DNA from: an uncultured Prevotella sp.
GTDB taxonomy: Bacteria > Bacteroidota > Bacteroidia > Bacteroidales > Bacteroidaceae
Length of the DNA stretch: 53,429 bases
NCBI GenBank assembly: GCA_902800365.1
Contig: CADCEF010000026.1
Coordinates: 1 to 53,429, forward strand
Direction: 5' to 3'
Part shown: in pieces, positions 24,677 to 32,535 of the stretch
How positions within the stretch are numbered: the stretch's first letter is position 1
Layout of the letters: each line of letters opens with the position of its first letter
Program-made: the position numbers and the translations under genes
The notes under the pieces: model-generated
Told to the model about the DNA's origin: nothing
Seen by the model: the letters and a program-made list of their open reading frames with translations, nothing else
Database searches by the model: none

Positions 24677-25195
24677 TTAGTCATCGTCGCTGCTCTGGTA
24701 ACCGCCACCGTCCTGACCGCCGCCGTTCGATGGCTGGGTGTTCTCGTTGTCCTCGATATCACCGCTATCGGTACTGGTCACGCGCTTCACCTCTTTGCCA
24801 TCGCGGTCGAAGCAGGTAATCTGCACGGCAGTCTTCGAGAGCTCCTCCTTCAGGTCGGTGTCGGGGGTGAAGATGATACGGCGACTCGAAATCAATCCTG
24901 CCTTTACCTCTTCCACCTTCTCAACGCTCTTGGCTCGCAGACCAAATCGCATGGTTCCCAGACCTGGCAGCGCTACTGAGTGGCCTTCGGTGGCCCACGC
25001 CTTGATCACCTCGCCGGCTGCATCCCAGCATGCCTGCATGATTCCCTTACTCACTCCGCTGCGCAGAGCAGCCTCCTTAATCACTTTGTCCTGAGTCAGA
25101 GCCGTATAGAGCTCCGGCATCATCACGTAACGATACTTACCAGCATACTTGCCGATGTTCTGATACTGTTCCTTAGCTTTTACTTTTAATGCCAT
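24677..25195 (-). CDS. HU-family (histone-like) DNA-binding protein
   Basis: A 172-residue protein with a divergent HU/IHF fold at about 30-125 (AALRSGVSKGIMQACWDAAGEVIKAWATEGHSVALPGLGTMRFGLRAKSV). An acidic, Gly/Asp-rich C-terminal tail (GGGQDGGGYQSSDDD) follows. This is the Bacteroidales HU-HIG type associated with accessory modules. It should bend or coat DNA. Its leader contains TTTAATGTTTAATT repeats, and further upstream lies the inverted-repeat/AT-palindrome structure at 25419-25572. Confidence 0.82.
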   Translation of the reverse strand: MALKVKAKEQYQNIGKYAGKYRYVMMPELYTALTQDKVIKEAALRSGVSKGIMQACWDAAGEVIKAWATEGHSVALPGLGTMRFGLRAKSVEKVEEVKAGLISSRRIIFTPDTDLKEELSKTAVQITCFDRDGKEVKRVTSTDSGDIEDNENTQPSNGGGQDGGGYQSSDDD

Positions 25196-25572: not shown

Positions 25573-25725
25573 ATTTCTTGTCTGTTTGCCAATAGCAAAT
25601 ACTATGCGTTTACAATCTCTTTAACATTGACCTGCTTCTTTGACAGCCACAACCCCTTATTTCCCTATTTTGTCGCAAAACACCAAGCCTGTCGCAACAA
25701 CTCCGATAAATATCTGGCATTTTTC

Positions 25726-25756
25726 TTGGAATCAGCCAAAAATTTCCTTATCTTTG
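25726..25756 (+). promoter_or_regulatory. Promoter of the double-glycine peptide genes
   Basis: TTCTTG with TTG at 25726-25728, then 20 bp, then TATCTTTG at 25749-25756: a good Bacteroidetes promoter. Transcription should start near 25763, about 67 nt before the first peptide ATG. In the second repeat unit the -7 box is damaged (TGACTTTG), so both genes probably depend on this promoter. Confidence 0.75.
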
Positions 25757-25829
25757 CAATGTCAATCAGAACAAACGACATCTTAGAGACAAGAAACAGC
25801 AAGTTTAACAATTTAAAATTTATTAGATT

Positions 25830-25934
25830 ATGAAACAGAATGAAGAGAACAGCCAGAAGGATCAGGAGTTAACTAAGGAAGAGTTGGAGCAGGTAAACGG
25901 CGGAGGTTTTCTACCACGTCCGAAAGGGTGTTAA
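25830..25934 (+). CDS. Double-glycine leader peptide 1 (RiPP/pheromone-like precursor)
   Basis: A 34-residue ORF. The N-terminal 25 residues form a hydrophilic double-glycine leader (ELTKEELEQVNGG at residues 13-25), the pattern recognised and cut by C39 peptidase ABC exporters. Cleavage after Gly25 would release a nine-residue core, GFLPRPKGC, ending in cysteine. The start is set by MKQNE shared with peptide 2 and by the leader AACAATTTAAAATTTATTAG. No modification enzyme or C39 transporter lies in the window. I infer an exported peptide: signal, bacteriocin or modified natural product. Confidence 0.8.
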   Translation: MKQNEENSQKDQELTKEELEQVNGGGFLPRPKGC

Positions 25935-26022
25935 TTGCTGCTGACTTTGCAATATCAATCAGAACAAACGACATCTGAGAGACAAGAAACAGCAAGTTTA
26001 ACAATTTAAAATTTATTAGATT

Positions 26023-26136
26023 ATGAAACAGAATGAAAAGAACGTCCAGAAGGATCAGAAGTTAACTAAGGAAGAGTTGGAGCAGGTAAACGGCGGACTC
26101 AAAGTAATAGTTATAAAATCTCCGAAAGGGTGTTAA
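26023..26136 (+). CDS. Double-glycine leader peptide 2, paralogue of peptide 1
   Basis: A 37-residue ORF exactly 193 bp downstream of peptide 1. The leader differs at only three positions and keeps KLTKEELEQVNGG. The predicted core is twelve residues, LKVIVIKSPKGC, sharing only the terminal PKGC with peptide 1. Leader conservation with core diversification is typical of processed peptide families. It has no good promoter of its own and is probably cotranscribed with peptide 1. Confidence 0.8.
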   Translation: MKQNEKNVQKDQKLTKEELEQVNGGLKVIVIKSPKGC

Positions 26137-26281
26137 TTGCTGCTGACCAGCCAAGAACTCCTGGGGGACAAGCCTGAGCGTTACTTTCTTGGCAAACTCT
26201 GGCTGGGCTCGATGCCCAGTCAAAGTTTCCTGTCCGCTGGTGGCATAAGCCATCGCATCCTTTCTTGGCGCCGCAAAGGTA
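26137..26281 (-). other. Gene-start fragment on the minus strand, truncated at the peptide duplication
   Basis: A -7 box TACCTTTG (complement of 26274-26281), an AAGAAAGG site and an ATG at 26253 open a frame MAYATSGQETLTGHRAQPEF that continues sensibly for about 40 residues. It then runs antisense into peptide 2. I read it as the 5' remnant of an unidentified gene cut when the peptide cassette arrived or duplicated. Confidence 0.4.
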
Positions 26282-26466: not shown

Positions 26467-26894
26467 ATGGATATAATGGATACTGTAAAAAAGCATATAG
26501 ATTATTGTGGAGACGAAAGTTTTGTCTTCTTTGATTCTGAAATCGCAGAAGTCATAAAGTGCTCTGATAATTACACTGATGAGGAGATAAACCAAGCATT
26601 AGGCCAGTATGTTTATGTTAAAGAACATTTAGGTCGAAGTGGAATATCTAAAGAGAGTATACTAAATGATGATCATCCTTCTGAGTTGTTTATGCAAAGT
26701 TTAGACACCTCTGCTTATAATGCCGCCATGTGTATAAAAAGTTTTTTTTATATAAACATTTTGGCGATAGTGTGGTTCGTGATGGTCTCAGCGAAGGCGT
26801 TGCCGTTTATAGAAAGAATAATCTGCCTGAAGCAGATTTCTGGAAGAATATGTGTAGAAAACTACTCTATTTGAATGAGCGAGGATGGCTTTGA
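26467..26894 (+). pseudogene. Unknown protein gene with a frameshift at an 8-T tract
   Basis: ATG 26467 opens MDIMDTVKKHIDYCGDESFV and reads in one frame to the T8 tract at 26742-26749. Beyond it the -1 frame continues convincingly (YKHFGDSVVRDGLSEGVAVY ... RKLLYLNERGWL) to TGA 26892-26894, while the original frame turns into hydrophobic nonsense and stops at 26874. One more T, or a -1 ribosomal slip on T-TTT-TTT, gives one 142-residue protein. No family recognised. It could be a decayed gene, a phase-variable gene, programmed frameshifting or a homopolymer sequencing error. Confidence 0.7.
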
Positions 26895-29749: not shown

Positions 29750-30136
29750 ATGGAAAAAATTTATATTTCTACAGAGAGACAGGTATCGCTCGACGGTCTG
29801 CTGACCATCGGCAAGTTGGAGAACGGACTCAAGACTGCAGACTTTATGTGCTGCGAGGATGTTGAGATGCAGACATTCTCAGGAACTTTCAAGGTGGAGG
29901 GCAAGCACGATGGTAACGTGTATATGACCGAGAAACCGAAGCGCAGACGTAACAAGGCCATCTTCCGCGACGACAACGCATCGCTGTCGCAAGGGCATGA
30001 CAAGCGCTGGTACTTCTACTTCTCGCTTGACGAGGATCAGCTGGAGCAGCTACCCGAGAAGCTGGTGCATCAGGCTAGTGCGATAGCACAGAAGGTGATT
30101 CGCGAACTTATTAAAGGAAGGGGGTACAGACTATGA
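29750..30136 (+). CDS. Unknown 128-residue protein in the VirE-N/DUF3987 operon
   Basis: The start is ATG 29750 (MEKIYISTERQVSLDG), with GAAA just upstream. A basic patch PKRRRNKAIFR at about residues 64-74 and a helical C-terminus (VHQASAIAQKVIRELIKGR) suggest nucleic-acid binding, but I recognise no family. The stop overlaps the ATG of the next gene by 4 bp, so translation is coupled to the VirE-N/DUF3987 protein. Confidence 0.65.
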   Translation: MEKIYISTERQVSLDGLLTIGKLENGLKTADFMCCEDVEMQTFSGTFKVEGKHDGNVYMTEKPKRRRNKAIFRDDNASLSQGHDKRWYFYFSLDEDQLEQLPEKLVHQASAIAQKVIRELIKGRGYRL

Positions 30137-32535
30137 TATCGTACTGCAAGAATGGCAAGTCGGCACAGGTGCTGGCTTGCCCTCAGGATAAGCTGAACGA
30201 GATTCTGGACTCGCCAGAGGTGGCTGAGGTGTGCCAGAAGTTGACTACCGTTGACCACGACAGCGACGAGGCAAAGACGCTGAAACAGAGACTGCCGCTG
30301 CTGATGTTTATGGCCAACTACACCGATGGGCACCGACACGCTAAGAGCGCTGTACCCACTAATATGGCCTATCTTGACCTTGACGAGCTGAACGGCGAAG
30401 ACCCGCGCGAGGTGTGGAAACGTTTGGTTCAGATACTCATCTTGCTGGAGCTAGAGCATCTGATAGTATTGGTACACGTGAGCTGTTCGGGCAAGGGATT
30501 GCGCATCGTTTATATCATACCGAGTGAGTTCGGGCATCTGAAGCCAACAGAGCGCATAGACCAGTCGAAACAGTGGCTGGCAGCTAAGCTAGGAGTGACC
30601 GACGATTCGAAAACAAAGGATTTGGCTCGCGGGTCGTTCGCTGTGCCGAGAAACTATGTGCTCTATGGCCCTGATAAGCGACTGTTTGAAGAGAGCGTGA
30701 GCGAGAGTGTGAAGGATGAGATTCTTTTAGCAACGGACTACAGGACTAACAGGACTGATTCGGTTGTTGAAAATGGAGAAAATGAGTCCTTAAGTCCTGT
30801 AGTCCTTGCAAAAAATTACCCCGATGCTTATCACGGCATTCCTTTCACTGAGATCATCGCAAAGTACTGGGAGGTGAACAACCAAGGGTTTGAACCTACT
30901 ATTGGCGACCGCGACACACTGACCTATCAGTTGGCCTGCGACCTGCGCCACATCTGTGGTAAGAATGCCGATTGGCTGGATAAGGTGATACCTTGCTACG
31001 ATGGCTTTACGCCCGAAGAGAAACGCGAGAAGATTAAGAGCGCGCTGAGTTCGGAGTATAACGGATTCCCTACGAGACTGAGGAATGTGCTGAATGCACT
31101 ACAGATGCCAGATGGAATAGGTAAGAGGGAAGATATGGTTCAAGCATCGGATGCCGAGGATGATTGTTCGATGGCAAATGTTCAATGGTCAGCCAAGAAA
31201 CTTCCACAAGGCATTCGCGATTCGATAAATGCCGTAGGCCCTGCTTTGACAATGCCGGTTGTTACGGCTATCTGTCCTTGCATCGGCGCGCTAGCAACGG
31301 GTGTAATGCTCGATGTTCACGGCACTAAGCGCGGACTTAACCTCATCTCGTATATCGCTGGTGACTTTGCTTCGGGCAAAGGAGGTATCGACCCGGTAGT
31401 TGAGGCTTGGATGAGCGAGGTGCAGGCGCTGGATGATATGTACACTCAGCAGGAGGACGAATGGCGCAAGAAGAAAAAGGCATCGGTAAACAAGAAAGAC
31501 CAGCCTGAGGAGCCTATGCTACCCATACGTAACCTTACGCTGAATAACACCGTAGCTAATCTGGCTCAACAGCTGGCTAATACTGAGGGTAAGCACGCCT
31601 TCTCGTTTACGCCTGAGGCCGATACGGTAGCGCAGAAGTGGAAATCGAGTATGAGCGACTTCTCTGTAATGCTGCGTCAAAGCTATGATGGCTCTAAGTA
31701 TGAACGCCGAGCCAAAAGCGTGGATGCTGTAAATGTGCATATCAAGCACCTGTTGTGGAACGTAACGATGTGTGGCACGCCTGATGCGCTTTACCGCGTG
31801 GTAAACAACTACACCGACGGATTCCAGAGCCGTATAGCCGTAGCCCGTACGCCCGACAACACATTTGCGAAGCTTGAGGATATTCCGCCAGTGATGACCG
31901 ACCGCCAGCGCGACCGCATACAGCAGATAGCTCACCTGCTACCGCTGATGTACGGCGAGGTGGTACTGCCGAAACTCGAAGCCAAAGGCCGTGAATGGGT
32001 GGAGCGTATACGACTAGAGACGATGAAGAACGACGATCGTACACGTGCCCGTCAGCGTTTCCGTGTGTGCGTAACAGCCCAGAGAATGACGTGCTGTATG
32101 ATGCTCTGCAAAGTGTGCGAGGGGTTGATTCAGAAGTACGGACTTACCGGTGCTGAGGCCAAATTGAAGCAGCAGCCTGGACTATGGAAGGAACTCTTGC
32201 TGAAAGCACAGACACCTACGATGCTGGAGGCTTACAATGTAATAGCCGACTCGCTGCTTGAGAACGCCCTTTACTTCTTCCGCGACCGTATAGAGAACGC
32301 TTTCCTTAGTCGTGACTATGCAAGCGGACAGTATGGCGAGCGACAGAAACGCGGCAAGAACGACTCAATCTTTGAGCGACTGGATATCCAGTTTACGTTC
32401 GAGCAGGCTATGCAGCACTCGGTAGCCGTGAAGGGTGCCAAAGTGAACTACAACACCGTTCGCCAGATGCTGAAGAACTGGCGTAAGCAGGGGCTTGTGG
32501 TGCTGGAAGAGGACGGTAATTATCGTAAATTGTAA
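30133..32535 (+). CDS. VirE-N (BT4734-like) / DUF3987 primase-helicase-like protein, intact copy with in-frame repeat
   Basis: An 800-residue protein. N-terminal VirE-N domain (about 45-180): MAYLDLDELN and SCSGKGLRIVY, reminiscent of the DxD and sGxG motifs of primase-polymerase folds. Residues 200-226 come from a REP palindrome (30730-30810) in frame. Then comes a helical segment (YHGIPFTEIIAKYWEVNNQG) and a DUF3987 ATPase-like domain with P-loop GDFASGKG at 410-417. The usual Ser/Thr after the P-loop lysine is Gly, unlike the paralogue at 586-2382 (GDPASGKS). The C-terminal winged-helix-like end reads VKVNYNTVRQMLKNWRKQGLV with small variation. It probably acts on DNA; role unproven. Confidence 0.8.
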   Translation: MISYCKNGKSAQVLACPQDKLNEILDSPEVAEVCQKLTTVDHDSDEAKTLKQRLPLLMFMANYTDGHRHAKSAVPTNMAYLDLDELNGEDPREVWKRLVQILILLELEHLIVLVHVSCSGKGLRIVYIIPSEFGHLKPTERIDQSKQWLAAKLGVTDDSKTKDLARGSFAVPRNYVLYGPDKRLFEESVSESVKDEILLATDYRTNRTDSVVENGENESLSPVVLAKNYPDAYHGIPFTEIIAKYWEVNNQGFEPTIGDRDTLTYQLACDLRHICGKNADWLDKVIPCYDGFTPEEKREKIKSALSSEYNGFPTRLRNVLNALQMPDGIGKREDMVQASDAEDDCSMANVQWSAKKLPQGIRDSINAVGPALTMPVVTAICPCIGALATGVMLDVHGTKRGLNLISYIAGDFASGKGGIDPVVEAWMSEVQALDDMYTQQEDEWRKKKKASVNKKDQPEEPMLPIRNLTLNNTVANLAQQLANTEGKHAFSFTPEADTVAQKWKSSMSDFSVMLRQSYDGSKYERRAKSVDAVNVHIKHLLWNVTMCGTPDALYRVVNNYTDGFQSRIAVARTPDNTFAKLEDIPPVMTDRQRDRIQQIAHLLPLMYGEVVLPKLEAKGREWVERIRLETMKNDDRTRARQRFRVCVTAQRMTCCMMLCKVCEGLIQKYGLTGAEAKLKQQPGLWKELLLKAQTPTMLEAYNVIADSLLENALYFFRDRIENAFLSRDYASGQYGERQKRGKNDSIFERLDIQFTFEQAMQHSVAVKGAKVNYNTVRQMLKNWRKQGLVVLEEDGNYRKL
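30730..30810. repeat. GGACTACAGGACT palindromic repeat, copy d, in frame inside the DUF3987 gene
   Basis: An 81-bp (27-codon) element with ends GCAACGGACTACAGGACT and AGTCCTGTAGTCCTTGC, the same family as in the his operon. It lies between the VirE-N and DUF3987 regions, at the same place where the other paralogue carries a family-1 element. Confidence 0.9.

Follow-up and report, generated by a model that had tools for sequence, protein, structure and literature searches.

Tandem double-glycine peptide genes with short, variable cores in an uncultured Prevotella and their relatives in the genus

Introduction

What do two tandem genes of 34 and 37 codons, which have nearly the same leader and almost nothing in common beyond it, contribute to the Prevotella that carries them? 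The Bacteroidota dominate the rumen and the gut, and to our knowledge peptide signalling in this phylum is little known. The two genes lie in a stretch of 53,429 nucleotides from an uncultured Prevotella sp. (contig CADCEF010000026.1, hereafter the window), and the original prediction took them for precursors of exported, processed peptides behind a double-glycine (GG) leader. In the Bacteroidales, GG precursors and C39 exporters are known, there together with rSAM, LanC-like, YcaO or LanM genes, according to PMC10352776.

Results

Both open reading frames (ORFs; 25830-25934, 34 aa, and 26023-26136, 37 aa) begin with ATG and are intact. They lie in a direct repeat (25752-25904 and 25945-26097) of 153 nt, of which 147 are identical, at a spacing of 193 nt, and thus the coordinates and the repeat alignment bear out the tandem duplication of 193 nt that had been predicted. 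The features of the locus are as follows.

25671..25697, + strand: putative operator, direct repeat TGTCGCAA (25671-25678) N11 TGTCGCAA (25690-25697), exact match
25749..25756, + strand: Bacteroidota-type -7 box TATCTTTG (TAnnTTTG), 78 nt from the operator start
25752..25904, + strand: tandem repeat copy 1, 5' UTR and leader of peptide 1
25830..25904, + strand: peptide 1 leader MKQNEENSQKDQELTKEELEQVNGG, with L-12, L-7, V-4, G-2 and G-1; TIGR01847 17.8 bits (cut-off 15.7)
25905..25934, + strand: predicted core of peptide 1, GFLPRPKGC, and stop
25919..25945 (copy 1) and 26121-26147 (copy 2), + strand: duplicated 3' tail, 27 nt identical (PKGC codons and 3' flank)
25942..25949, + strand: degenerate -7 box TGACTTTG of copy 2, without an operator of its own
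25945..26097, + strand: tandem repeat copy 2, 5' UTR and leader of peptide 2
26023..26097, + strand: peptide 2 leader MKQNEKNVQKDQKLTKEELEQVNGG; TIGR01847 16.7 bits (cut-off 15.7)
26098..26136, + strand: predicted core of peptide 2, LKVIVIKSPKGC, and stop; the first 23 nt differ from copy 1, and the shared tail follows

The leaders, each of 25 aa and ending in LEQVNGG, are as close to each other as first described (71 of 75 nt identical), and the four differences fall in three codons, every one of which changes a residue. The two copies diverge directly after the second Gly codon, and identity resumes at the 27-nt tail. The predicted cores, GFLPRPKGC (9 aa) and LKVIVIKSPKGC (12 aa), have one Cys each and only PKGC in common. 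The earlier description of cores that differ except for their last four residues therefore holds in the window but does not extend to the family, in which PKGC is no feature: it is common to both cores because it is encoded in the duplicated tail, and in relatives the core of peptide 1 continues as RPKGYDDPLTC (G291) or ends as RPKG-stop (G269). The 18 nt that follow RPKG in G291 are absent from the window, and since both window copies have the shortened tail, copy 2 probably received its tail from copy 1. For the 23 nt of core 2 DNA, no other copy with up to four mismatches was found in the loci compared. The ORF pair is not a product of chance, because similar leaders recur in open frames of other genomes. 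Carriage of the peptide genes by phages or plasmids was considered and rejected, as in the two collections covered the leader DNA (two patterns) had no match in viral_contigs and peptide 1 had none in plasmids.

The pair is flanked by an HU-HIG gene (24677-25195) and a DUF3987/BT4734-like gene (30133-32535), relatives of which occur in 10 and 8, respectively, of the 62 stretches compared, window included, and the region between them is perhaps an insertion hotspot. The left edge at 25642 is common to the window and four other loci. At 26470-26894, close to a T8 run, what seems to be one small gene is broken into two frames; the two resulting ORFs have no Pfam match.

With peptide 1 as the query, 21 of 200 genus genomes gave a match at E <=1, seven of them at E <1e-5. 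A leader profile of 17 rows (E <=0.05) found 85 places in 32 of 398 genus genomes, with an in-frame stop in one; relatives therefore do have homologous leaders whose frames are intact, so that the original prediction withstands the test proposed with it. When 301 genomes of 30 genera were drawn at the level of the family, three matched (E <=0.01), the window genome strongly and two others weakly; as some of the genomes drawn were of the same genus yet had no match, this shows the rarity of the leader outside the genus only weakly. The window genome itself has five leader matches, namely the two ORFs, one on C31, one on C48 with an in-frame TAG, and a weak one on C4.

At a threshold of 14 bits, chosen here, the sequence compared contains 74 distinct family genes, which encode 72 distinct cores with a median of 14 aa, 55 of them of 20 aa or less, so that the family of conserved leader and variable core that had been foreseen is indeed present; in this set a few leaders have GS, GA or GR at their end, and one member, in RUG12938, is probably broken. 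Cys occurs in 12 of the 72 distinct cores and is C-terminal in three. Several core types recur across genomes (GF.RPK, I.FQ, ..DILKSTTAILMF, RRWCM, KRK[FY]E, GEFT and VSKKVIK), and in the window, G269 and G322 a GF.RPK core and another core form a tandem pair. A single genome has as many as 10 family matches with different cores (G269), which is odd for a simple pheromone. Cores of the form IRVK...VRVK stand behind GG leaders in four genomes (G131, G136, G345 and G020; L050, L115, L122 and L125), and in G242 (L210) IRVKVRVK follows a Sec-like signal (its type judged by eye) with the exact operator upstream; the codons differ, and the resemblance of the cores may reflect common descent or convergence. 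The same core behind both kinds of signal is what a core with a function outside the cell would lead one to expect. Neither the leader family nor the TGTCGCAA operator is described among the matches listed from open-access titles and abstract openings, and as judged by those titles and openings the peptides are a variant of GG-leader peptides not yet described.

The two parts of the precursors were also compared for selection. In samples that were small, pairwise and non-independent and that comprised few, related sequences, pN/pS was 0.26 for 20 leaders of 25 aa, 1.79 for the cores of the STTAILMF group and 9.7 for those of the GEFT group (four genomes, very few synonymous changes), and in GEFTxYDxSxRPR seven variable nt fall in three of 13 codons (P about 0.0006 against random placement). 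The leaders are under purifying selection, which agrees with the coding constraint implied by the original prediction, and the core changes in the two groups tested are mostly replacements, consistent with diversifying change. From the codons alone, a diversity-generating retroelement seems an unlikely source of the variable core codons, other adenines of the same cores being invariant.

As noted from the outset, the window holds no C39 exporter. The single C39 match of the window genome lies on another contig, C22, in an operon that encodes HlyD, ABC1, ABC2, an RND-type adaptor and TolC, and export would thus take place in trans from an unlinked locus. All three subunits that were compared with the NHLP/NHLM models score below the cut-offs (ABC1 851.4 bits against 853.3 and ABC2 702.6 against 709.4, both narrowly, HlyD 106.4 against 156.2); the curated ABC1 cut-off is passed by 27 of 398 genus genomes. 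Relative to RUG14503, ABC1 of the window genome (L059 7377-9467, C22) is 16 residues short within a probable membrane helix, and this gap, together with a score just below the cut-off, suggests that the exporter may be impaired or misassembled. By sequence, the nearest solved structure to the exporter's C39 domain is LahT150 (6mpz, E 3e-54), and the Cys, His and Asp expected to be catalytic in a C39 domain are kept. LahT150 tolerates different cores and requires hydrophobic residues at -4 and -7 and Leu at -12, as stated in PMC6363468. The window leaders, with L-12, L-7, V-4 and GG, carry everything that LahT150 requires.

Of the 62 stretches, made up of the window and 61 others around leader matches, 11 contain exporter genes; a whole peptide gene lies within about 1.2 kb of the operon in nine of the 11, and the other two have partial or odd leader matches. 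Approached from the exporter, 10 of 57 named loci have a leader match of at least 30 bits, seven of them being contigs already counted and three new. In RUG12938, whose exporter is 95% identical to that of the window genome, a window-type leader, accompanied by an operator identical to that of the window, stands beside TolC, with a second family peptide adjoining; the frame of this leader copy continues into sequence antisense to TolC. Beside TolC in RUG14503, part of the same operator is left. The leader and operator beside TolC in RUG12938 argue that window-type peptides are tied to this exporter. ABC1 at over 600 bits, a threshold chosen here, is present in 16 of 32 leader-positive versus 16 of 366 leader-negative genomes (Fisher p 1.3e-11, relatedness ignored). 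Among the 16 leader-positive genomes without it, 12 are less than 90% complete, which does not apply to G081, G153, G200 and G345; in the leader-only genomes G101 and G215, contig ends carry some of the remaining operon genes.

The exporter operon of the window genome also encodes two long-leader GG peptides, with no member of the short-leader class adjoining. A small protein in this operon (L059 11082-11471, C22, - strand) and in that of P. ruminicola KHT3 (L141 7896-8120) has a membrane helix and a coiled coil, both judged by eye, a terminal ELEVVTGG and a short basic tail, and is possibly a membrane-anchored leader with a GG site. The exporter loci of some relatives contain AraC-type, RsbW-like, STAS and SpoIIE proteins; by Pfam, 13 of 58 clustered exporter loci have an RsbW-like kinase and 11 a STAS protein (e.g., L052, L114, L137, L139, L140, L142).

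Upstream of gene 1 the promoter has the architecture TGTCGCAA-N11-TGTCGCAA-N51-TAnnTTTG, the last element being what we take to be the -7 box consensus of the Bacteroidota. Copy 2 has no operator and a degenerate -7 box, so that it probably depends on the first promoter, from which the second gene would be co-transcribed. This direct-repeat promoter is new here, and together with the exporter-linked relatives and the second gene's missing operator and degraded -7 box it goes beyond what had been predicted. When gaps of 0-40 and up to one mismatch were allowed, the gap was exactly 11 in 21 of 24 operator sites, from loci chosen for peptides or exporters, and 16 of those 21 have a -7 box at offset 78. 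The operator with the -7 box (<=2 mismatches) was found in 90 of 398 genus genomes (reversed-pattern control, 0 of 398), and in the window genome this genus-pattern search gave a single site, upstream of peptide 1. Among the family genes, 32 of 74 have the operator element (22 positions, of which up to 4 may mismatch; none of 74 with the pattern reversed), distributed by leader class as 13/15 MTQKN-like, 15/29 MKQNE-like, 0/15 MK[TPE]E, 1/5 MVKKN and 3/10 other.

That the operator is a peptide-only motif was rejected, as a GG peptide lies downstream of three of the 74 sites examined, among the matches listed from 30 loci and 40 chosen stretches. By a crude pattern, the next ORF at these 74 sites is Sec/lipoprotein-like in 43, some of which are short chance ORFs, and of another kind in 12, with none in 16. 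The targets in other genomes include TssD (two sites by Pfam, L251 and L257), TssC, peptidases C10 and C11, and a Cache-SpoIIE protein. The operator at type VI genes suggests an interaction regulon in the genus, and from the sites upstream of type VI, peptidase and Cache-SpoIIE genes we infer that it serves a broader regulon, with genes for the cell surface and for interaction. The spacing of 19 nt between the direct repeats corresponds to about two helical turns, as would be fitting for a regulator of the LytTR or AraC type. The type VI genes (TssC, TssD) behind the TGTCGCAA operator are at L244, L251 and L257 (G088, G020 and G153, respectively). In G364 (L225 1104-1670), an exact operator is followed by a Sec-like precursor in which units of ARPEAAPRGIFVFTDK and RGAEVGRGF are repeated and which resembles a multi-copy peptide precursor; RGIFV also terminates a GG core in L101.

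Discussion

It seems to us, with a probability of about 45%, that the window genes encode tiny exported peptides of a cell-cell interaction regulon, which are more likely to be signals than toxins. Firstly, a regulator would bind the direct repeat at 25671-25697, and both genes would be transcribed from the TATCTTTG promoter. Secondly, by homology, the C39 domain of the NHLP/NHLM-type exporter on the other contig would recognize the 25-aa leader and cut after GG, and the 9- and 12-residue cores would leave through the ABC1/ABC2-HlyD-adaptor-TolC conduit, probably unmodified; that the cores are cleaved and exported appears highly probable from the genomic evidence. Thirdly, and least certainly, the cores would act outside as cell-cell signals, their variable sequences giving strain specificity, in a regulon that in related genomes would also comprise type VI secretion components, secreted peptidases and a sensor phosphatase. 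Signals are favored by the very short cores, as many of them are 5-18 aa, lengths that suit signals better than pore formers, and competition is favored by the many cores per genome together with the type VI link. No receptor gene was recognized beside the window peptides.

The cores may instead be short antimicrobial or antagonistic peptides, microcin-like, that form a diversified arsenal exported by the same route. Many different cores in a genome, the cationic nature of many of them (KRKFEP, NRRRHHHR, IRVKVRVK), the TssD and TssC genes behind the same operator in other genomes, and the tandem pairs that GF.RPK forms with another core in the window, G269 and G322, which resemble two-peptide systems, would all agree with such a role. 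However, the GG-leader bacteriocins known to us are far longer than cores of 5-9 residues such as RRWCM, KKVIV and NRPIIEP, and on the whole we consider an arsenal rather unlikely. Pfam also recognized no immunity gene among 10 window ORFs, but five of the 10 lack any match, and bacteroidetocin producers inhibit themselves too, according to PMC6671954.

Less probable still is a spreading promoter-leader cassette, in which leader and operator would be copied with cores that are largely accidental frames and many of the copies would be decaying. It would accommodate the RUG12938 frame that runs into antisense TolC, the stop within the C48 copy, a second window copy that lacks an operator, whose -7 box is degraded and for 23 nt of which no source was found, and the edge at 25642 common to four other loci. 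A decaying cassette is, however, hard to reconcile with an in-frame stop in just 1 of 85 matches, with core types that recur across genomes with conserved residues, with the leader pN/pS of 0.26, or with the exporter linkage. Enzymatic modification of the cores (thioether, thiazole or other) before export, as in RiPP precursors, is very improbable: NHLP-type exporters elsewhere accompany TOMM and lanthionine clusters (PMC2887384) and Cys terminates both window cores, but LanC_like and SPASM have no match in the 92.8% complete window genome (positive in 1 and 8, respectively, of 14 control genomes), no modification enzyme was found among the 10 exporter-neighbor proteins scanned, and Cys occurs in just 12 of 72 cores. 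Of the two products originally suggested, a signaling peptide stays plausible, while a thiol-modified one is not favored.

The window peptides resemble the TIGR01847 GG-leader peptides in leader length, the L-12/L-7/V-4/GG pattern, scores above the cut-off and linkage to a C39 exporter in relatives, and they differ from most peptides with this signal that we know of in their far shorter and more variable cores and in export that would occur in trans from an unlinked locus. In logic, the closest analogue would be the prochlorosin system (ProcA/ProcM), in which one machine serves many precursors with a conserved leader and a variable core, minus its modifying enzyme; in contrast to prochlorosins, LANC_like has no match here, and the leader is unrelated and much shorter. 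The short GG leader, short variable core and direct-repeat operator recall the streptococcal ComC/BlpC precursors, ComE having a direct repeat as its operator. ComC membership was nevertheless rejected on the PF03047 scores (15.7 and 11.1 bits against a cut-off of 20.4; BlpC, 18 against 70), and no pair of sensor kinase and regulator was recognized beside the window genes. Class IIb bacteriocins were likewise rejected, for core size and because TIGR03949 (21.5 bits, equal to the cut-off of 21.5, and 20.4) covers positions 2-16 and 3-16 of 45, the leader alone; the original view that the peptides are not pediocin-like is supported. NHLP/NHLM systems (TIGR03794/03796/03797) also have two ABC subunits, one with C39, an HlyD protein and a hypervariable core after GG (PMC2887384), but in our case no modification enzyme was found and an RND-type adaptor and TolC are encoded alongside. 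From the Nif11-related precursors in the same source the peptide 1 leader is set apart by its TIGR03798 score of 12.7 bits (cut-off 32.3). Bacteroidetocins, also from Bacteroidota and also with a GG leader and a C39-type exporter, have, according to PMC6671954, mature peptides of 35-50 aa with two or more Cys behind leaders of 15-16 aa; the window peptides, of 9 and 12 aa with one Cys and a 25-aa leader, were excluded from them on core size and Cys number.

Returning to exported peptides of an interaction regulon, we tentatively extend this reading to the genus, although we hold the extension to be rather doubtful as a whole: Prevotella may have a repertoire of interchangeable micro-peptides, in which a conserved operator-promoter-leader module would carry new cores of 5-20 residues, exported by one NHLP-type exporter (some via Sec) and serving as strain-specific signals or weapons, in a direct-repeat regulon to which type VI secretion and secreted peptidases would also belong. 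A LahT150-like peptidase would offer a simple first biochemical test. If true, a peptide family with changing cores, whose promoter architecture is tied to type VI genes in relatives, would provide a testable route to communication or competition in Prevotella, and the family would be a natural test bed for the origin of new short peptides.
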